A DNA stretch of 29,075 bases from IMG/VR virus record IMGVR_UViG_3300046010_000953, positions 1-29,075 of that record; one strand, 5' to 3'. The position numbers and the translations under genes were made by a program. Below, piece by piece: positions 10,675 through 29,075 of the stretch. This stretch comes from a virus. Each line of letters starts with the position of its first letter. The stretch's first letter is position 1. The notes below the pieces were generated by a model. The model was not told the DNA's origin. It was given only the letters and a program-made list of their open reading frames with translations, and did no database searches.

Positions 10675-11433
10675 ATGAAAGCAACACAAAAACCAATTAG
10701 CGTAAATAAAATTTACAAGCTTAAGAATGATGCAGCTCCGCTATCATTCATTTTACCATCTCGAGGAACTGACCGATACCCATTACTTTGGTGGGATGAA
10801 GAGAATGGTATCAACCGAGAAATCCGCTACGCGGTAAATCAAAAAAGCCCATTTCAAGATGAGCAAGATGGCAATGCAATTGTAGAGCCAATTATCTTTG
10901 AGGATGGATTTTTAAGTGTCCCAAAAACAAATCCTGTTTTACAGCAGTTCTTGAATTATCATCCACTTAATAATATTTCTTTTGAAGAGATTAACTTTGA
11001 GAAGGATGCGTCTAAAGAACTAGAGATAATCAATCACGAGGTTGATGCCTTGATTCGTGCTAAAGAGCTTACCGTTGACCAAATGGAGACTGTATACAGA
11101 ATCCTATTTAACGTTAGTCCTGATAAGATTACAACAGCAGAGATGAAACGCGACATCTTGGTATTTGCCAAGAATGAGCCGGTAAACTTTGTTAATCTAC
11201 TTGACGACCCAATGTTAAACACTCAGTCAACAGTACAAATATTCTTTGAGAAAAGACTTCTTGTATTCAAGAATCAAAATAAAGAGATTTGGTTTAACAC
11301 ACCATCTAACAAAAAGAAGATGATGAATGTACCATTTGGTGCAGACCCATACGCAGAGCTTGTCGAGCACTTCACATCTAAAGAAGGTCTAGACGCATTA
11401 AAAATGTTAGAGAGCAATTTGGAGTTAATGTAA
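10675..11433 (+). CDS. Conserved structural-module protein, function unknown
   Basis: A 252-residue protein located between capsid and connector genes. Residues ~28-66 hold a distinctive aromatic and charged block (PSRGTDRYPLLWWDEENGIN, then REIRYAVNQKSPFQDEQDG). The middle is helical and acidic, and residues ~195-235 carry KRLLVFKNQNKEIWFNTPSNKKKMMNVPFG. I recall similar proteins next to capsid genes of uncultured Bacteroidota phages, with no assigned role. Candidates are an auxiliary head protein or an internal regulator; nothing in the sequence decides. It begins 23 bases after the capsid terminator, with no promoter box in between, so its expression probably depends on read-through. Its last codons contain the -33 element of the next promoter. 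Confidence 0.7.
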   Translation: MKATQKPISVNKIYKLKNDAAPLSFILPSRGTDRYPLLWWDEENGINREIRYAVNQKSPFQDEQDGNAIVEPIIFEDGFLSVPKTNPVLQQFLNYHPLNNISFEEINFEKDASKELEIINHEVDALIRAKELTVDQMETVYRILFNVSPDKITTAEMKRDILVFAKNEPVNFVNLLDDPMLNTQSTVQIFFEKRLLVFKNQNKEIWFNTPSNKKKMMNVPFGADPYAELVEHFTSKEGLDALKMLESNLELM

Positions 11434-11449
11434 TTACTTCATATATTTG
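11418..11449 (+). promoter_or_regulatory. Complete Bacteroidota promoter TTTG-N20-TATATTTG
   Basis: A -33 TTTG (11418-11421) and a -7 TATATTTG (11442-11449) lie 20 bases apart, inside the usual spacing range. The -33 box sits within the 3' end of the preceding gene. Transcription should begin near 11455. No start codon follows before the terminator at 11495, so the transcript would be non-coding or a leader. This is the best full promoter in the window. Confidence 0.7.
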
Positions 11450-11454
11450 CACAT

Positions 11455-11526
11455 CTACTTTAGCGTTTCTGAAAAGAAGTGTTCTTACCACATCAAAGGC
11501 GTCTTAATCGGGCGCCTTTTGTTTTT
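11455..11526 (+). ncRNA. Candidate ~70-nt structured small RNA or attenuated leader
   Basis: The segment is bounded by a full promoter upstream and a rho-independent terminator downstream and contains no ATG. Its 5' half folds into a hairpin at 11462-11483: nine pairs, including three G-U pairs, closed by a GAAA tetraloop. The 3' half is the terminator hairpin. It resembles a small RNA gene in layout, but I do not recognise a family. It may instead be a leader that attenuates transcription into the tail genes. The boundaries are predictions. Confidence 0.45.
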
Positions 11527-11527
11527 T
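11495..11527 (+). terminator. Rho-independent terminator before the tail module
   Basis: A seven-base-pair stem, AAAGGCG (11495-11501) with CGCCTTT (11513-11519), has an 11-base loop. It runs into TTTTGTTTTTT (11517-11527). It ends the short transcript predicted from the promoter just upstream and would also stop read-through from the preceding gene. A new promoter box begins four bases later. Confidence 0.8.
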
Positions 11528-11530
11528 ATG

Positions 11531-11538
11531 TATCTTTG
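11531..11538 (+). promoter_or_regulatory. -7 promoter box TATCTTTG before the tail module
   Basis: TATCTTTG (TAnnTTTG type) ends 14 bases before the ATG at 11553, predicting a leader of under ten bases. No good TTTG lies at the usual -33 distance, because that region is the terminator stem. Its place directly after a terminator makes it the likely start of the tail-gene transcript. Confidence 0.6.
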
Positions 11539-22640: not shown

Positions 22641-25600
22641 ATGAACGAAAAAGCGATTCAAGACGCATACAAATTATTCCAAGGAGCGGGATACGGTAAA
22701 AGTATAGACGATTTTAGAAATTTAATGTCATCCAATCAAAATGCATTAAACGATGCATACAAATTATTCCAAGGAGCGGGGTATAAAAAAAGTGTTGATG
22801 AATTTAAAGTTCTAATGGGTGCAGGCGCTTCTCAACAAGAGCCATTAAAAAAAAAAGAACCTACCGTATCGGCTTCCAAATTGGCTCAACCTACTTCGGT
22901 TTCTTCTTCCAAAGAGGTTAAACCTAAGGTTGATGTAAAATCCCCTGTAAGAAAAGAAGATAAATTTGAAGTATACAAGGGCTACACAGGTAAAGAGGAT
23001 AAAGAGTATAGATTTGATGCTAAAACAAATACTTGGTATGAAACTAAACTTTTAATTGGAGGTACAAAACAAGCAGGAAAAGAAATGCTTTCATCTGGAG
23101 CAACTGCAAGAAAAGAAGTTACTCCAAATTTAAATTTAAAGTCTGAATACGTTCAAATTACTAATCCTTCAAGGGTTGCGGAATTAAATCGTTATTTTAA
23201 AAAACAAGCTAGTACATCCAAAGGAGAAAATATATTTGTTGGTTATCCCGGTAAAGAAGCTAATGAATATAAAGTAGGTGATAATGGAGTTTGGATGAAG
23301 AGACCAAAGGGGAAGACAACTTGGTCTGTCGTCACAAACGAAGGTTCAATTACATCTTTAAATAAACAGTTTGGTCAAAAAGTAGACCCTAAAAAACAAA
23401 ACCTTCAAGATTTAGCAGCAAAGAACGCAGAACTAAATAACTTAAATCATAAAATTGATTCTTACGTTACATCTAGTTTAGTTGATGAAAATGAAGAATC
23501 TGTAATAAGCCAATTACAGTTTAAATTCCCGCAGTTTAAATTTGAAGAATCTCAAGCAGGAGCAGATAGAATGATTGTATCCCTAAGAGGTAGCAATCGT
23601 CCTGAGGATAAAATCACCATAATGTTAGACAATTGGCGTGATTCTGAAGATGCATCGGAAGCTCAAAGATTGAGAAGCTTTATGAAGGAAAGAGCTACAA
23701 TGGCTGAATCAAGAATAAATCTTGAGCAAAAAGAAGGATACTTTGTGGATAAAGAAACACAACGTAGGCAGCAAGCTATAGCAACAGGAATGGGGGAGAG
23801 AGATTTTGCTCAACCTGAATTAAAGATTAACAAAGACGGAAGTGTATCATATGCTACTGAACCCGAAACAAAACCGGGAGAAACGGCTATGAAGGATTGG
23901 GAAGCTAAACAGCAACTCATGACTGCAAGAAAAGAATACATAGCTGATAAGTCAAGCTACATGAAAAGCTTAAAGAACAGCTACGAAAGGGGAGATATTG
24001 ATAGAAAGCAATTTGGTTCGGCAGTAGCTTCTATAAAAGTTGATGACGAAGAGATGAAACGTCATGACAATTTTGTTAATGATGTAAACATAAGAAGAAA
24101 AGATTTAGCTCAAGCTGAAAAGTTTCAATCAGAATATATAGCTGATGTAGAGGCTAAGTTAAAGTCAGGAGAGATTACTCAAGAACAATACGAAACAGAA
24201 TATAAAGATAAAATAGCAGGCATAAACCAACGTGTTGAAGAGAAGAAAGCAGAGCTTAAGATAGATGACAGAAACTTAAACGTGTCTCTTAGAGCTATGG
24301 ATAGAGCGCTTGGAGAAAATAGATTGATTCAAGAGCAGATTGGTAGTACGGGTGGTGTCATGGTATATAATCTTCTAAAGGGAGCAACAAACGTAGGAAG
24401 ATTTGCAGGAATGACTGCTGAAGACCAAGATGAGTTTATTCGTGAGTTGACAGGTATTATGACAACAGAAGAATGGATGGCATCTAAAGACAGAACATTC
24501 CTTCAACAAGCTGCAATGGCAACAACATCATCTCTTGGTGCTATGGCAACTAAGTTTATTCCTGTTGTTGGACAAGCTGCTTATGTGGCAAATTTATTTT
24601 CATTGGGATTCTTTGAAATGAAGGATGAGCTTGATAATGCTACATATAAAAATCCTGAGACCGGAAAGATAGAGAAAGTGAATATACCTCCTGCTCAAAA
24701 ATTTTTAATGTCCGCAGCTTATGGTACTGTATCGTATTACTTAGAGAAATTGGGACTTGATGAATTACTTACGGGGGCTGCGGGTAAAAAATTAGCAATG
24801 ACTGTTATTATGGATGTTGCTAAAAAAATTACAAAAGATTCACCAAAAGAATTTATTGAGAACGCTTTAATTAGCGAAACCAAAACAAGGTTGCAGCAAG
24901 CAGGCGTTCAATTTGGTACAGGTATAATAACTGAGGGTGCGACTGAAGCACTTCAGTCATTAGCTAGTGTATCAACTAAAGAAATATATGACAGGTTAGC
25001 CGAGAAAAAATACTTCAATAACAAGTCATCTTGGGAAATTGCAAGCGATATAATGTACGAAGGTGCTTTAGGAGGTGCAGGTGGGGGTATGGTTACAGGA
25101 GCTATTACAGGCTCTTCATTAACCATGCAACAAAGAAGAGAGGCTAAATATAAAGATGATATAGCGGCAATGATTGCTGCTGCCGAAACAGAGGGCGCTA
25201 GTCAAGCTGTAATTACAACATTAAAAGCAAAGGTAATTAAAGGTGAATTAACTGCCCCTGAAGCAAAGGAAATTGCAAGAAATTTTAATATCATAAAATC
25301 AAAGGTAGACCAAATGCCTAATGATTTAAATGAACAAGGAAAAGCTGCATCACTTGATTTAATGATGGAGAGAGACCAATTAAATAAACAAATTGAAGGG
25401 AAAGACCCGAACCTCGTCAAGGCTCAAAAGGACCGCATTGCCGAGATTGATAAACGTTTACAAGAAATAGGAAAAGAATATGCCGTTCAAGAGCAAGCAA
25501 CAAGTGAAGTTCCTGTACAGCCAGAAGCCGGAGTTGGCGGAGAAGTGGCGCAAGGAGCACCCGAAACAACAACTGAGCAAGTTACCGAAGAAGGTGAGCA

Positions 25601-28600
25601 AGCAGTCGAAGAAGAAGTAGTACAGGTAGAGGAAGCATTAGCCCCTGAGGTACAAGAAGAATTAGATGCATTTGAGCAATTGCTATCCGATGAAGGATTA
25701 GCATTTGAAGAAGTTGTAGATGAAGAGGCTGCAGCCATGGCCCCCGAGGTAGAGGAAGAGGTAGTTGTACCTGCTCCACCATCTCAAAGAAAAGTGTCTT
25801 CAAAGACACCGACGCAGGCGACGCCAACTACTGCACCAACTCCTGCTCAGCAGATGGCTTCAGATGAAGACATTATGCTTGAGGAAGATTTGGTTCAAGA
25901 AGTAGAAAATTCTAAACAAAATATAGAAGAAGCTAAACAAAAAGCAAATGAAGCTATAGCTAAAGTAAATGCGTCTAAATGGTCTAAAGGAAGAAAGAAA
26001 ACTGAGATTGATAAAATCAAAGCAAAAAGAGATGAGGAGATTGCTAATTCTCGAGATTATTTAAATGGTTTTAAAAGAGATTTAGATAAGGTAAGACGCA
26101 GAATTAATAAAGCAAATGCTCAACAGCCTGCTGCGCCTAAACCTACTCAAAAGAAAAAGCAGACAGCGAAACAAGCAAAGGAGCAATTTATTGCAGAAGT
26201 TGATGCGCAAATAAAACGTGAGCGTGACATCACAGGCATGAAACTCGCTGAGCTTGAGAACCAAAGAATGCGCGCTTATCGAAACGGAAATAATCAGTTA
26301 GGTCGCGAACTTGCCGATAAAATTGAGGATGAAAGATTAGCATCTAGAAAACGTTTAGCTGACTTAAATGCTAAAAAAGATAACCCATCTGCGTTTGCTA
26401 GATTTAGAAAAAGAACTGAGGGAGAAGAGCGTAAGGATACGCGTAATAGCGAGTCTAAGATTACTAGTCAAATGAATAAGATGTCTGCTGAAGAGAAGGC
26501 ATTTGAGGAGCCAACTGTAAGTGGTGAGGCTGAGCTTAATCCTGTTGAGGATTCTAAGCAACCTAAGTCATTAGTTGATAAGGTGCTTAAATTCTTAGGT
26601 CTTAAAAGCAAGGATGAAATGCTTAGAAAGATTGAAGACTTTGATGGTATCCCTATGATTATGGCTATGTCTGATATTTTATCAGGCGGCACTATAGAAG
26701 ATTCTATGGGTAACTCGATGGTTGTTGACGGCGGATTACTATTTAATACCTTTGGCCGCAACATGGAGCTTGCTTGGGCAGGAGTGACAGAAGATGGCGC
26801 TCAAAAACAATATGATGAGGCTGTACAGGTTTACAACGCAAACAAAGAGTTATTCGATAGATTATGGGCTGAAGGAAAAATACCTAAAGGCCATATACCT
26901 ATGGCTGTAATGCGCATGGGTAATACCGCTATTAACTCCAACGAGGCAGTTTTTAGATATATTCTTCCTTACATTGAGTCATTACCTATTGAGAACAGAG
27001 AAGCTGCGTTAAATCAGCTTGTAGAGTCATTGAACAAAAGAGCTGAAGGCGACTCATCATCTGTATGGTTTTCTGAGTTATCAGATAAAATTGAAAATGG
27101 TGAGCTATCTACAGTCAATGACATAAAAGAATACCTAAATGATATAATCACTAATGAAGCAAATTCAAAAAAGAAAATAGAATCTGCCAAAAAATTTCTT
27201 AATAAGATTTCCAAAAACAAGGATGGAAGAGAAAGAACTTTAGATGATATTGTAGCTGACGTAAATGAGAAGATTGAAAAGATTGTTCCATTTATGATTA
27301 TTGATTATATCAATAAGAACAATATCACTACTCTTGATGGATTATTTAAAGAGATAATTGAAAAATCACAAGAAAGAGCTAAAGGTAAAAACAATATGTT
27401 CTCTTTACCAATTAGAGCTTTCATATATGACCAATTAATATCTCCTGAAGAAATAAAAACCAATAGCTTAGACACCATTAAAGTATTGCTTAATGGTATA
27501 GAGAATCCAAGAAACGAGCTATTCACTTCTGATTACTTGTACAGCAAAATCGGAGACCCATCAATGATGAAGTCTAAGATGGGTGACGTAGTAGCCGTAA
27601 TGGGTATTGACGTGCTTAATGGTGGCGTTGGAAAGGCAAAACATAACAACTACGGATTTGGGCCTAAGGGACGTTTAATCTCTTTTATATCAAACCCTAA
27701 GCAGGGGGTTGATGTATTCCCTGAGTTTAGAGCTAAAGCTGCACGTGTATTTAAAAAGAATGCAAAGGGTGAATATCCAAACACTCAAGCGGTAGCTGAC
27801 CAAACAGGTGGCGCATTCTTCATGGACTCTGCATTTAGAGGTACTAAAGCTAGATTCGGTAAGATTGGTGATTTAGATTTACTTATAGGTAAACTTCGAT
27901 TTGCTTTCCCGGAAGTATCTGTAACAACTACAGAGCAAGAGTTTAATGACTTCTTAGACCAAGAGGGTGTAAGAACTCGTGAGTCTGATGGCACAATCAT
28001 CTATGGTGTTACCAAAGATGGCCGTATATTCTTGAATCCAAACTTTGATACTCTTCGTACACCAATACACGAATTTGGTCACATTTGGATTGACTACCTA
28101 CGCTCAAAACAATCAGGACCTAAAGGAAAGGCATTACTTAAAAAAGGTTTTGAGCTTGTTGATGGTACACCTGAATACAAGAGAGCACTTAAGGAGTATG
28201 GTGAAAGAGAAATTGCATTAGAAGAGGCATTAGTTGAATTGATGGCTGTTAAAGGTGATACTATTATTAATGCTGCGAAAAAGTCTAAGTTTAAGTCTTG
28301 GATGAACGCAATGTTTAAATACATCAAGGAGCAGTTCATTACCTCAAAAAAATTCAAAAAAGAAAATATTGAGTCGCTTACACTTGATGAGTTCATTAAC
28401 ATTGGTCTTGCAGACTTATTCTCCGGAGAGAGAGTAAGTGGAAAGTTTGATGCAAGAACTGCTGAGGGTGGAGCTAAAGCTCGTGCTAGTAAGCAAAACA
28501 TAGCTAATAAGATTGTAGAAATTGGAAGAGAGAAAGGAATATCTGACGACGTCATTAAACAATCTTTAAAGAAACGTGGCTATACAAATGCTGAAATAAA

Positions 28601-29075
28601 TCAAGCGCTAAGCGTTCAGCCTGATACTACTGTTGCACCTAACGAAGCTTTAAATGACTTTATTGATAGCATCAACACAGTTGTTAAGGAATACGCTGCA
28701 GCTGCGAGAAGAAAGGTTAGAGCTGACTTGAAAGCTAAAAGAGCTGTACTTGCTGCAAAGCTCAAGGCTATGCAAACTAGTGGTAACATCACTGCAAAAC
28801 AAGCGCAAGCTTTATTAGAAAAAGTAAACAAGCTGAACTTAAGCAACTCTGTTGCAGTAGACCGCTTCATGCAATTCGCTGAAAACGTATTTAAAAACGC
28901 TGAGTATGTGGAGTCTCTTTCCACTATCAACAGATTGCTTCCTGCCGCTAGACGAAACATCAAGAGTAAGTTAGGTATTGCTAACGACTTAGTTCCTATG
29001 TTACAAAGTATGCTTGCTGTTAAGCCTTCATTTATTCCAATGTCAGTATTTGACACGTACAAATCAATTATTGAT
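22641..29075 (+). CDS. Giant internal virion protein with HEFGH metallopeptidase domain (partial, 3' end beyond window)
   Basis: The frame is open from the ATG to the window edge: 2145 codons without a stop. In order: two 30-residue repeats (5-29, 35-59; DAYKLFQGAGY); helical charged region to ~600; hydrophobic segment 620-660; an EGATEALQ motif (765-772); a glycine-zipper-like stretch at 809-825 (ALGGAGGGMVTGAITGS); acidic then Pro/Thr-rich linker, 956-1073; basic coiled coil to ~1260; a domain around 1330-1460 (GNTAINSNEAVFRY); another at ~1640-1740 (KMGDVVAVMGIDV). A zinc-protease motif, H1810-E-F-G-H1814, has a candidate third ligand at E1861/E1862 in LEEALVE. A helical GISDDVIKQSLKKRGYTNAEI motif (~1966-1986) and Ala/Lys coiled coil follow. 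Size, position and membrane-like parts fit a large ejection protein (T7 gp16 role) that could process host or virion proteins during entry. The protease call is motif-based. Confidence 0.8.
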   Translation, partial: MNEKAIQDAYKLFQGAGYGKSIDDFRNLMSSNQNALNDAYKLFQGAGYKKSVDEFKVLMGAGASQQEPLKKKEPTVSASKLAQPTSVSSSKEVKPKVDVKSPVRKEDKFEVYKGYTGKEDKEYRFDAKTNTWYETKLLIGGTKQAGKEMLSSGATARKEVTPNLNLKSEYVQITNPSRVAELNRYFKKQASTSKGENIFVGYPGKEANEYKVGDNGVWMKRPKGKTTWSVVTNEGSITSLNKQFGQKVDPKKQNLQDLAAKNAELNNLNHKIDSYVTSSLVDENEESVISQLQFKFPQFKFEESQAGADRMIVSLRGSNRPEDKITIMLDNWRDSEDASEAQRLRSFMKERATMAESRINLEQKEGYFVDKETQRRQQAIATGMGERDFAQPELKINKDGSVSYATEPETKPGETAMKDWEAKQQLMTARKEYIADKSSYMKSLKNSYERGDIDRKQFGSAVASIKVDDEEMKRHDNFVNDVNIRRKDLAQAEKFQSEYIADVEAKLKSGEITQEQYETEYKDKIAGINQRVEEKKAELKIDDRNLNVSLRAMDRALGENRLIQEQIGSTGGVMVYNLLKGATNVGRFAGMTAEDQDEFIRELTGIMTTEEWMASKDRTFLQQAAMATTSSLGAMATKFIPVVGQAAYVANLFSLGFFEMKDELDNATYKNPETGKIEKVNIPPAQKFLMSAAYGTVSYYLEKLGLDELLTGAAGKKLAMTVIMDVAKKITKDSPKEFIENALISETKTRLQQAGVQFGTGIITEGATEALQSLASVSTKEIYDRLAEKKYFNNKSSWEIASDIMYEGALGGAGGGMVTGAITGSSLTMQQRREAKYKDDIAAMIAAAETEGASQAVITTLKAKVIKGELTAPEAKEIARNFNIIKSKVDQMPNDLNEQGKAASLDLMMERDQLNKQIEGKDPNLVKAQKDRIAEIDKRLQEIGKEYAVQEQATSEVPVQPEAGVGGEVAQGAPETTTEQVTEEGEQAVEEEVVQVEEALAPEVQEELDAFEQLLSDEGLAFEEVVDEEAAAMAPEVEEEVVVPAPPSQRKVSSKTPTQATPTTAPTPAQQMASDEDIMLEEDLVQEVENSKQNIEEAKQKANEAIAKVNASKWSKGRKKTEIDKIKAKRDEEIANSRDYLNGFKRDLDKVRRRINKANAQQPAAPKPTQKKKQTAKQAKEQFIAEVDAQIKRERDITGMKLAELENQRMRAYRNGNNQLGRELADKIEDERLASRKRLADLNAKKDNPSAFARFRKRTEGEERKDTRNSESKITSQMNKMSAEEKAFEEPTVSGEAELNPVEDSKQPKSLVDKVLKFLGLKSKDEMLRKIEDFDGIPMIMAMSDILSGGTIEDSMGNSMVVDGGLLFNTFGRNMELAWAGVTEDGAQKQYDEAVQVYNANKELFDRLWAEGKIPKGHIPMAVMRMGNTAINSNEAVFRYILPYIESLPIENREAALNQLVESLNKRAEGDSSSVWFSELSDKIENGELSTVNDIKEYLNDIITNEANSKKKIESAKKFLNKISKNKDGRERTLDDIVADVNEKIEKIVPFMIIDYINKNNITTLDGLFKEIIEKSQERAKGKNNMFSLPIRAFIYDQLISPEEIKTNSLDTIKVLLNGIENPRNELFTSDYLYSKIGDPSMMKSKMGDVVAVMGIDVLNGGVGKAKHNNYGFGPKGRLISFISNPKQGVDVFPEFRAKAARVFKKNAKGEYPNTQAVADQTGGAFFMDSAFRGTKARFGKIGDLDLLIGKLRFAFPEVSVTTTEQEFNDFLDQEGVRTRESDGTIIYGVTKDGRIFLNPNFDTLRTPIHEFGHIWIDYLRSKQSGPKGKALLKKGFELVDGTPEYKRALKEYGEREIALEEALVELMAVKGDTIINAAKKSKFKSWMNAMFKYIKEQFITSKKFKKENIESLTLDEFINIGLADLFSGERVSGKFDARTAEGGAKARASKQNIANKIVEIGREKGISDDVIKQSLKKRGYTNAEINQALSVQPDTTVAPNEALNDFIDSINTVVKEYAAAARRKVRADLKAKRAVLAAKLKAMQTSGNITAKQAQALLEKVNKLNLSNSVAVDRFMQFAENVFKNAEYVESLSTINRLLPAARRNIKSKLGIANDLVPMLQSMLAVKPSFIPMSVFDTYKSIID
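22665..22690 (+). repeat. Direct repeat copy A in the giant gene
   Basis: A 26-base sequence beginning GCATACAAATTATTCCAAGG is identical to 22755-22780. It encodes the centre of the first of two 30-residue N-terminal repeats. The flanking codons have diverged. Confidence 0.85.
22755..22780 (+). repeat. Direct repeat copy B in the giant gene
   Basis: This is the second copy, exactly 90 bases after copy A and in the same frame. Nucleotide identity in the core, against divergence just outside it, suggests recent duplication or gene conversion. Confidence 0.85.
25790..25809 (+). repeat. Stem-loop repeat copy 3 (inside the giant gene)
   Basis: This 20-base sequence is identical to copy 1 in terL. 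Here it lies in the Pro/Thr-rich linker and is read in another frame (K-V-S-S-K-T). The loop CA has the same orientation as in the other two copies, so all three would form the same RNA hairpin on the coding strand. No T-run follows. Confidence 0.8.

Follow-up and report, generated by a model that had tools for sequence, protein, structure and literature searches.

Several small RNAs of phage origin have been described, among them DicF, IsrK, AsxR and CfrI, and a review of them makes no mention of Bacteroidota or flavobacteria (PMC12197685). Our literature search, with most subscription journals outside it, yielded no description of small RNAs in the phages considered here, and small RNAs of Bacteroidota phages seem to be nearly undescribed. 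In flavobacteria themselves, the sigma-A promoter box TAnnTTTG occupies positions -12 to -5, which can be used to place a transcription start (PMC9723704). Other described arrangements of a promoter followed by a short RNA include the viral RNA anti-CRISPRs (Racrs; PMC10651486) and attenuator leaders, and each is compared below with a candidate RNA module in a flavobacterium-type phage.

Architecture of the locus

The window is the 29,075-base IMG/VR virus record IMGVR_UViG_3300046010_000953, whose capsid and tail-side proteins have matches in phages of Flavobacterium, Cellulophaga, Maribacter and Tenacibaculum. The candidate module lies between the head and tail genes, with P0001 (10675-11433) on one side and P0002 (11553-12299) on the other, and its promoter overlaps the last codons of P0001. 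Elsewhere in the window, positions 22641-29075 are covered by a reading frame, 2145 codons or longer, that is cut off by the end of the record. The module and its surroundings contain the following features:

11418..11449, plus strand: sigma-A-type promoter P1, a pattern match with a -33 TTTG (11418-11421), a 20-nt spacer and the -7 box TATATTTG (11442-11449)
11454..11527, plus strand: predicted non-coding RNA of ~73 nt, with +1 placed at ~11454 by the flavobacterial promoter rule and the end at the T tract
11454..11463, plus strand: conserved 5' box TCTACTTTAG, a putative contact site, invariant in ten distinct B-type sequences from two genomic sites
11462..11483, plus strand: GAAA-loop hairpin of nine pairs, several of them G-U, from the predicted fold and not conserved by relatives
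11495..11527, plus strand: intrinsic terminator found by scanning (stem 11495-11519 plus T tract), its position kept in nearly all relatives and its stem covarying in A-type relatives
11531..11538, plus strand: second -7 box TATCTTTG, the probable promoter of the tail-side gene P0002, ancestral and outside the RNA

An initial annotation made from the letters of the window had described a TTTG-N20-TATATTTG promoter, a segment devoid of ATG, a GAAA hairpin, a terminator and a second box, and each of these is indeed present where it was placed. The hairpin consists of the strands AGCGTTTCT and AGAAGTGTT joined by the GAAA loop, and the fold of 11455-11527 has a predicted energy of -19.2 kcal/mol (z -3.0). 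No -33 TTTG is found at the right distance from the second -7 box. The 5' end predicted by the promoter rule falls on the TCTACTTTAG box in the window and on GTTGTTTTAG in a related group of RNAs, type A below.

The promoter pattern on its own is not above chance, as TTTG-N20-box matches the window twice with 0.99 matches expected. Because the motif alone should occur about once per window, the case rests on the combination of features and on their conservation. A promoter and terminator no more than 95 nt apart occur eight times in six records, of which the window and G009 are almost duplicates at this locus; when 100 Markov copies were made of every record, they yielded 0.00-0.01 such pairs per record. 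Among relatives, this combination is found once or twice per record and almost never in the Markov copies. The 2.28 Mb of compared loci contain 24 distinct promoter-terminator units, and 22 of the 24 are located at just two genomic sites. A module in L050/L051 has its box inside the end of the upstream gene and was taken as chance.

RNA types and their two sites

The module belongs to a small set of RNA types that occupy these two sites, the head-tail junction and a second site elsewhere. Type A (GTTGTTTTAG[A/G]GTT...) occupies the head-tail junction in a clade whose P0002 is 80-94% identical to that of the window. In loci recovered solely via the flanking protein, its sequence is almost constant between the -7 box and TTTAG, whereas the fourfold sites of P0002 mostly differ by 30-50%. 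Type B is the type of the window and begins with UCUACUUUAG. It occupies the same head-tail slot in L178, L183 and L312, where it is preceded by a P0001 homologue with 42-44% identity and followed by a small gene and a P0002 homologue (43-48% protein identity, 55-57% DNA identity). At the second site, type B is found in G001, L165, L302, L309 and L318, before the MEKF or the chaperonin gene. In total, it stands before four different genes: P0002, MEKF, chaperonin and MNRKF. When the window RNA is aligned with that of L177, which is the same as in L178 and L183, 26 of 31 columns are identical, a value above all 2000 shuffles. Most matches to wider B patterns lay outside any promoter-terminator unit and were set aside. 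Type C (AGTTCTGTT...) is found at the second site in G002, G003, G009 and L197.

The promoter travels with the RNA, as TTTG-N19/20-TANATTTG is kept in both the A- and B-type loci and P1 retains its 19-20-nt spacing in both clades. Five records (G001, G007, the L088/L302 record, G002 and G009) have both sites occupied. The combination is A with B or B with C in all five, so type B is present each time. Homology between A and B was considered and not established, the type A covariance model scoring the window weakly (20.8 bits, E 0.59).

The genes around the second site also recur. A phage-encoded chaperonin gene lies directly 3' of the second RNA site or one gene further in G001, G002 (L132), L165, L309 and L318, and the copy in G002 belongs by Pfam to the Cpn60 family. 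The MEKF gene (~95 aa, no Pfam match) varies in position among phages (L178, L183, L196-L208): in some it separates P0001 from P0002, in others it neighbours the chaperonin gene, and it is mostly accompanied by the RNA module. On the minus strand of G003 (oriented position 88) and L140 (G009; 10801), two nearly identical segments contain a promoter box, a hairpin ACTTACA..TGTAAGT and a terminator CCCTCTA..TAGAGGG, possibly another small RNA.

An addition to an older gene junction

Of 80 relatives collected via P0002, nearly all have a terminator hairpin and then a TAnnTTTG box immediately ahead of this gene. The cultured phages elemo and phi38:1 have the hairpin and box directly before the P0002 homologue, Gundel has them further apart and Panino has the box; the upstream promoter and RNA are absent from all four. 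The module is therefore an addition to the old junction. By this comparison, the terminator and second box are the ancestral part, and the upstream promoter with its ~73 nt is an extra module.

Close to the window, the module has been lost. In four close relatives (L003, L004, L005 and L012), the two flanking genes are still present with the terminator between them, and the rest is missing. The initial annotation had held that relatives with the flanking genes but neither hairpin would speak against an RNA gene, and these four bear this out by half: the module is gone, but the terminator hairpin persists. Relatives lacking the RNA still have the terminator and second box, so the module is dispensable for the downstream gene. 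The distribution of the module calls for three changes on the P0002 gene tree, which a single gain and two losses could explain; the P0001 tree requires the same number, with poor resolution near the window. L003 and L004, which lack the RNA, have a broken -7 box, TACATTTC, and L005 and L012 have the residual boxes TACATTGC and TATATTGC before P0002. Both residual boxes fit TAnnTTGY, a flavobacterial motif assigned to another sigma factor (PMC9723704), and for this reason promoter decay in L005 and L012 is not certain. In L009 (~1655, before the P0002 homologue), a 7-nt deletion removes the second -7 box and the upstream module stays, which could be an assembly variant.

What the RNA conserves

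In the type B RNA, the ten-base box TCTACTTTAG is the same in ten distinct sequences and coincides with the predicted 5' end. This conservation is partly ascertained, as several of the sequences came from search patterns containing the box; protein matches, by contrast, led to L008 and to the MEKF-neighbour loci L196 and L198. The region behind the box varies. In L008 another hairpin takes the place of the one in the window, L119 folds otherwise, and L302, L309 and L312 have lost the middle segment of the hairpin. Type A RNAs have a 4-bp stem with a free loop instead of the GAAA hairpin. The GAAA-tetraloop hairpin, on which the initial annotation had centered the structure, is thus not a defining feature of the family.

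The covariation proposed at the same time was examined by counting pairs in type A and is seen only in the terminator. Three terminator pairs are changed on both sides with 100% pairing, but hairpin 1 displays no compensatory changes and only one-sided G-U exchanges, though all 60 cells pair. Module sequences differ in length and composition and share no reading frame. With no conserved frame, and no ATG in the window segment, a peptide-coding role was rejected.

Search for identity and targets

Rfam returned nothing at the gathering threshold for the window or seven relatives, the best match below it being SprD (22.2 bits, with a threshold of 100). Antisense matches of at least 9 nt to the phage's own genome were within the range of shuffles, and a start-region duplex test over orthologous families was not above shuffles either (63/100 and 99/100 shuffles were as good). 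One match of 8-9 nt, where the MKVEKFL gene begins (window 1115), is shared by relatives. It is passed down within a single gene family, however, G012 lacks it and it fails the start-region duplex test; it was therefore discarded. A replication origin was likewise rejected, as the cumulative GC skew of near-complete relatives rises steadily through this region, with no turning point.

A probable independent small-RNA gene and its alternatives

Comparison of the loci reveals a unit that recurs, keeps its 5' end and terminator and places the same RNA before unrelated genes. We consider it probable that the segment is an independent small-RNA gene, likely acting in trans through its conserved 5' end by pairing with a host transcript. 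Host RNA polymerase with its primary sigma factor would start from the promoter at 11418-11449, at ~11454, and stop at the terminator near 11527, producing a non-coding RNA of ~73 nt, and P0002 would be transcribed from its own -7 box. The 5' end UCUACUUUAG would serve as the contact site that base pairs with the host transcript, the most usual mode of action for an RNA of this kind. Transcription, the start position, the pairing and the location of the target in the host are all parts that we infer. The segment has its own promoter and terminator, no conserved coding frame and a conservation independent of any one flanking gene, all in keeping with a small-RNA gene; its patchy presence and unconserved central hairpin are counterpoints, as are the negative target searches in the phage and the partly ascertained conservation of the 5' box.

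The module could also be a leader with an attenuator, in which an extra promoter for the tail operon is regulated by read-through at the terminator. The promoter and terminator do lie directly before P0002 on the same strand, and an alternative fold involving the terminator and 5' region is conceivable. Such a leader would be tied to one downstream gene as its main transcription route, which is not what the loci display: nearly every relative has a -7 box after the terminator whether or not the module is present, and close relatives with the same downstream gene lack the module. The presence of one RNA in front of four different genes points to an independent small RNA and away from a gene-specific leader, which we regard as unlikely. 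The initial annotation had likewise preferred a small-RNA gene to a leader, and the recurrence of the unit, the invariant 5' end and the range of downstream genes favor that choice at the level of sequence.

We are similarly doubtful that the RNA binds a host protein rather than an mRNA, for example as a decoy or a Racr-like counter-defence factor. A promoter with a solitary short RNA matches the layout of viral RNA anti-CRISPRs (PMC10651486), but an RNA that binds protein would ordinarily have a better conserved structure than the weakly conserved one seen here. One A-type variant resembles what we take to be the start of a type II repeat, a lead only. When genome contigs were scanned with an A-type pattern for a CRISPR-repeat mimic, eight isolated matches turned up at scattered places; the inspected ones fall within genes or in unremarkable sequence, and none belongs to a repeat array. 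A broader proposal may be entertained with little confidence: the three types would be interchangeable small-RNA cassettes, housed at two fixed sites, that jointly act against the host as RNA factors of counter-defence or takeover. Finally, the patchy presence of the module and its loss from close relatives would suit a relic or by-product in which a spare promoter points at a terminator and no functional RNA is made. This seems very improbable, since fourfold sites have changed by 30-50% and the proteins have diverged widely, yet the promoter and 5' box persist.

Comparison with known systems

Both ends of the candidate RNA are predicted precisely, its putative contact site is conserved, and the family includes natural loss variants and two insertion sites; expression and function are thereby open to direct testing. 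Similar to an attenuator leader, the candidate places a promoter, a short structured segment and a terminator before a gene. Unlike such leaders, the same RNA is found before four genes, a separate -7 box follows the terminator and no leader peptide is seen. Racrs are also viral, intergenic, promoter-driven short non-coding RNAs (PMC10651486), but they have high identity to a CRISPR repeat, and the genome scan with the A-type pattern met no array. The small RNAs of Flavobacterium psychrophilum, such as Rfp18, share with it a TAnnTTTG sigma-A promoter, a stand-alone position and a putative role as trans-acting regulator; they differ in being chromosomal and are described as strongly structured (PMC9723704). 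DicF, IsrK, AsxR and CfrI are likewise short, non-coding, of phage origin and proposed to pair, and several of the reviewed RNAs have a similar terminator-like 3' end (PMC12197685). These belong to other host groups, and no sequence relation to them was found. Phage small RNAs are a known kind, of which the candidate would be a new family.
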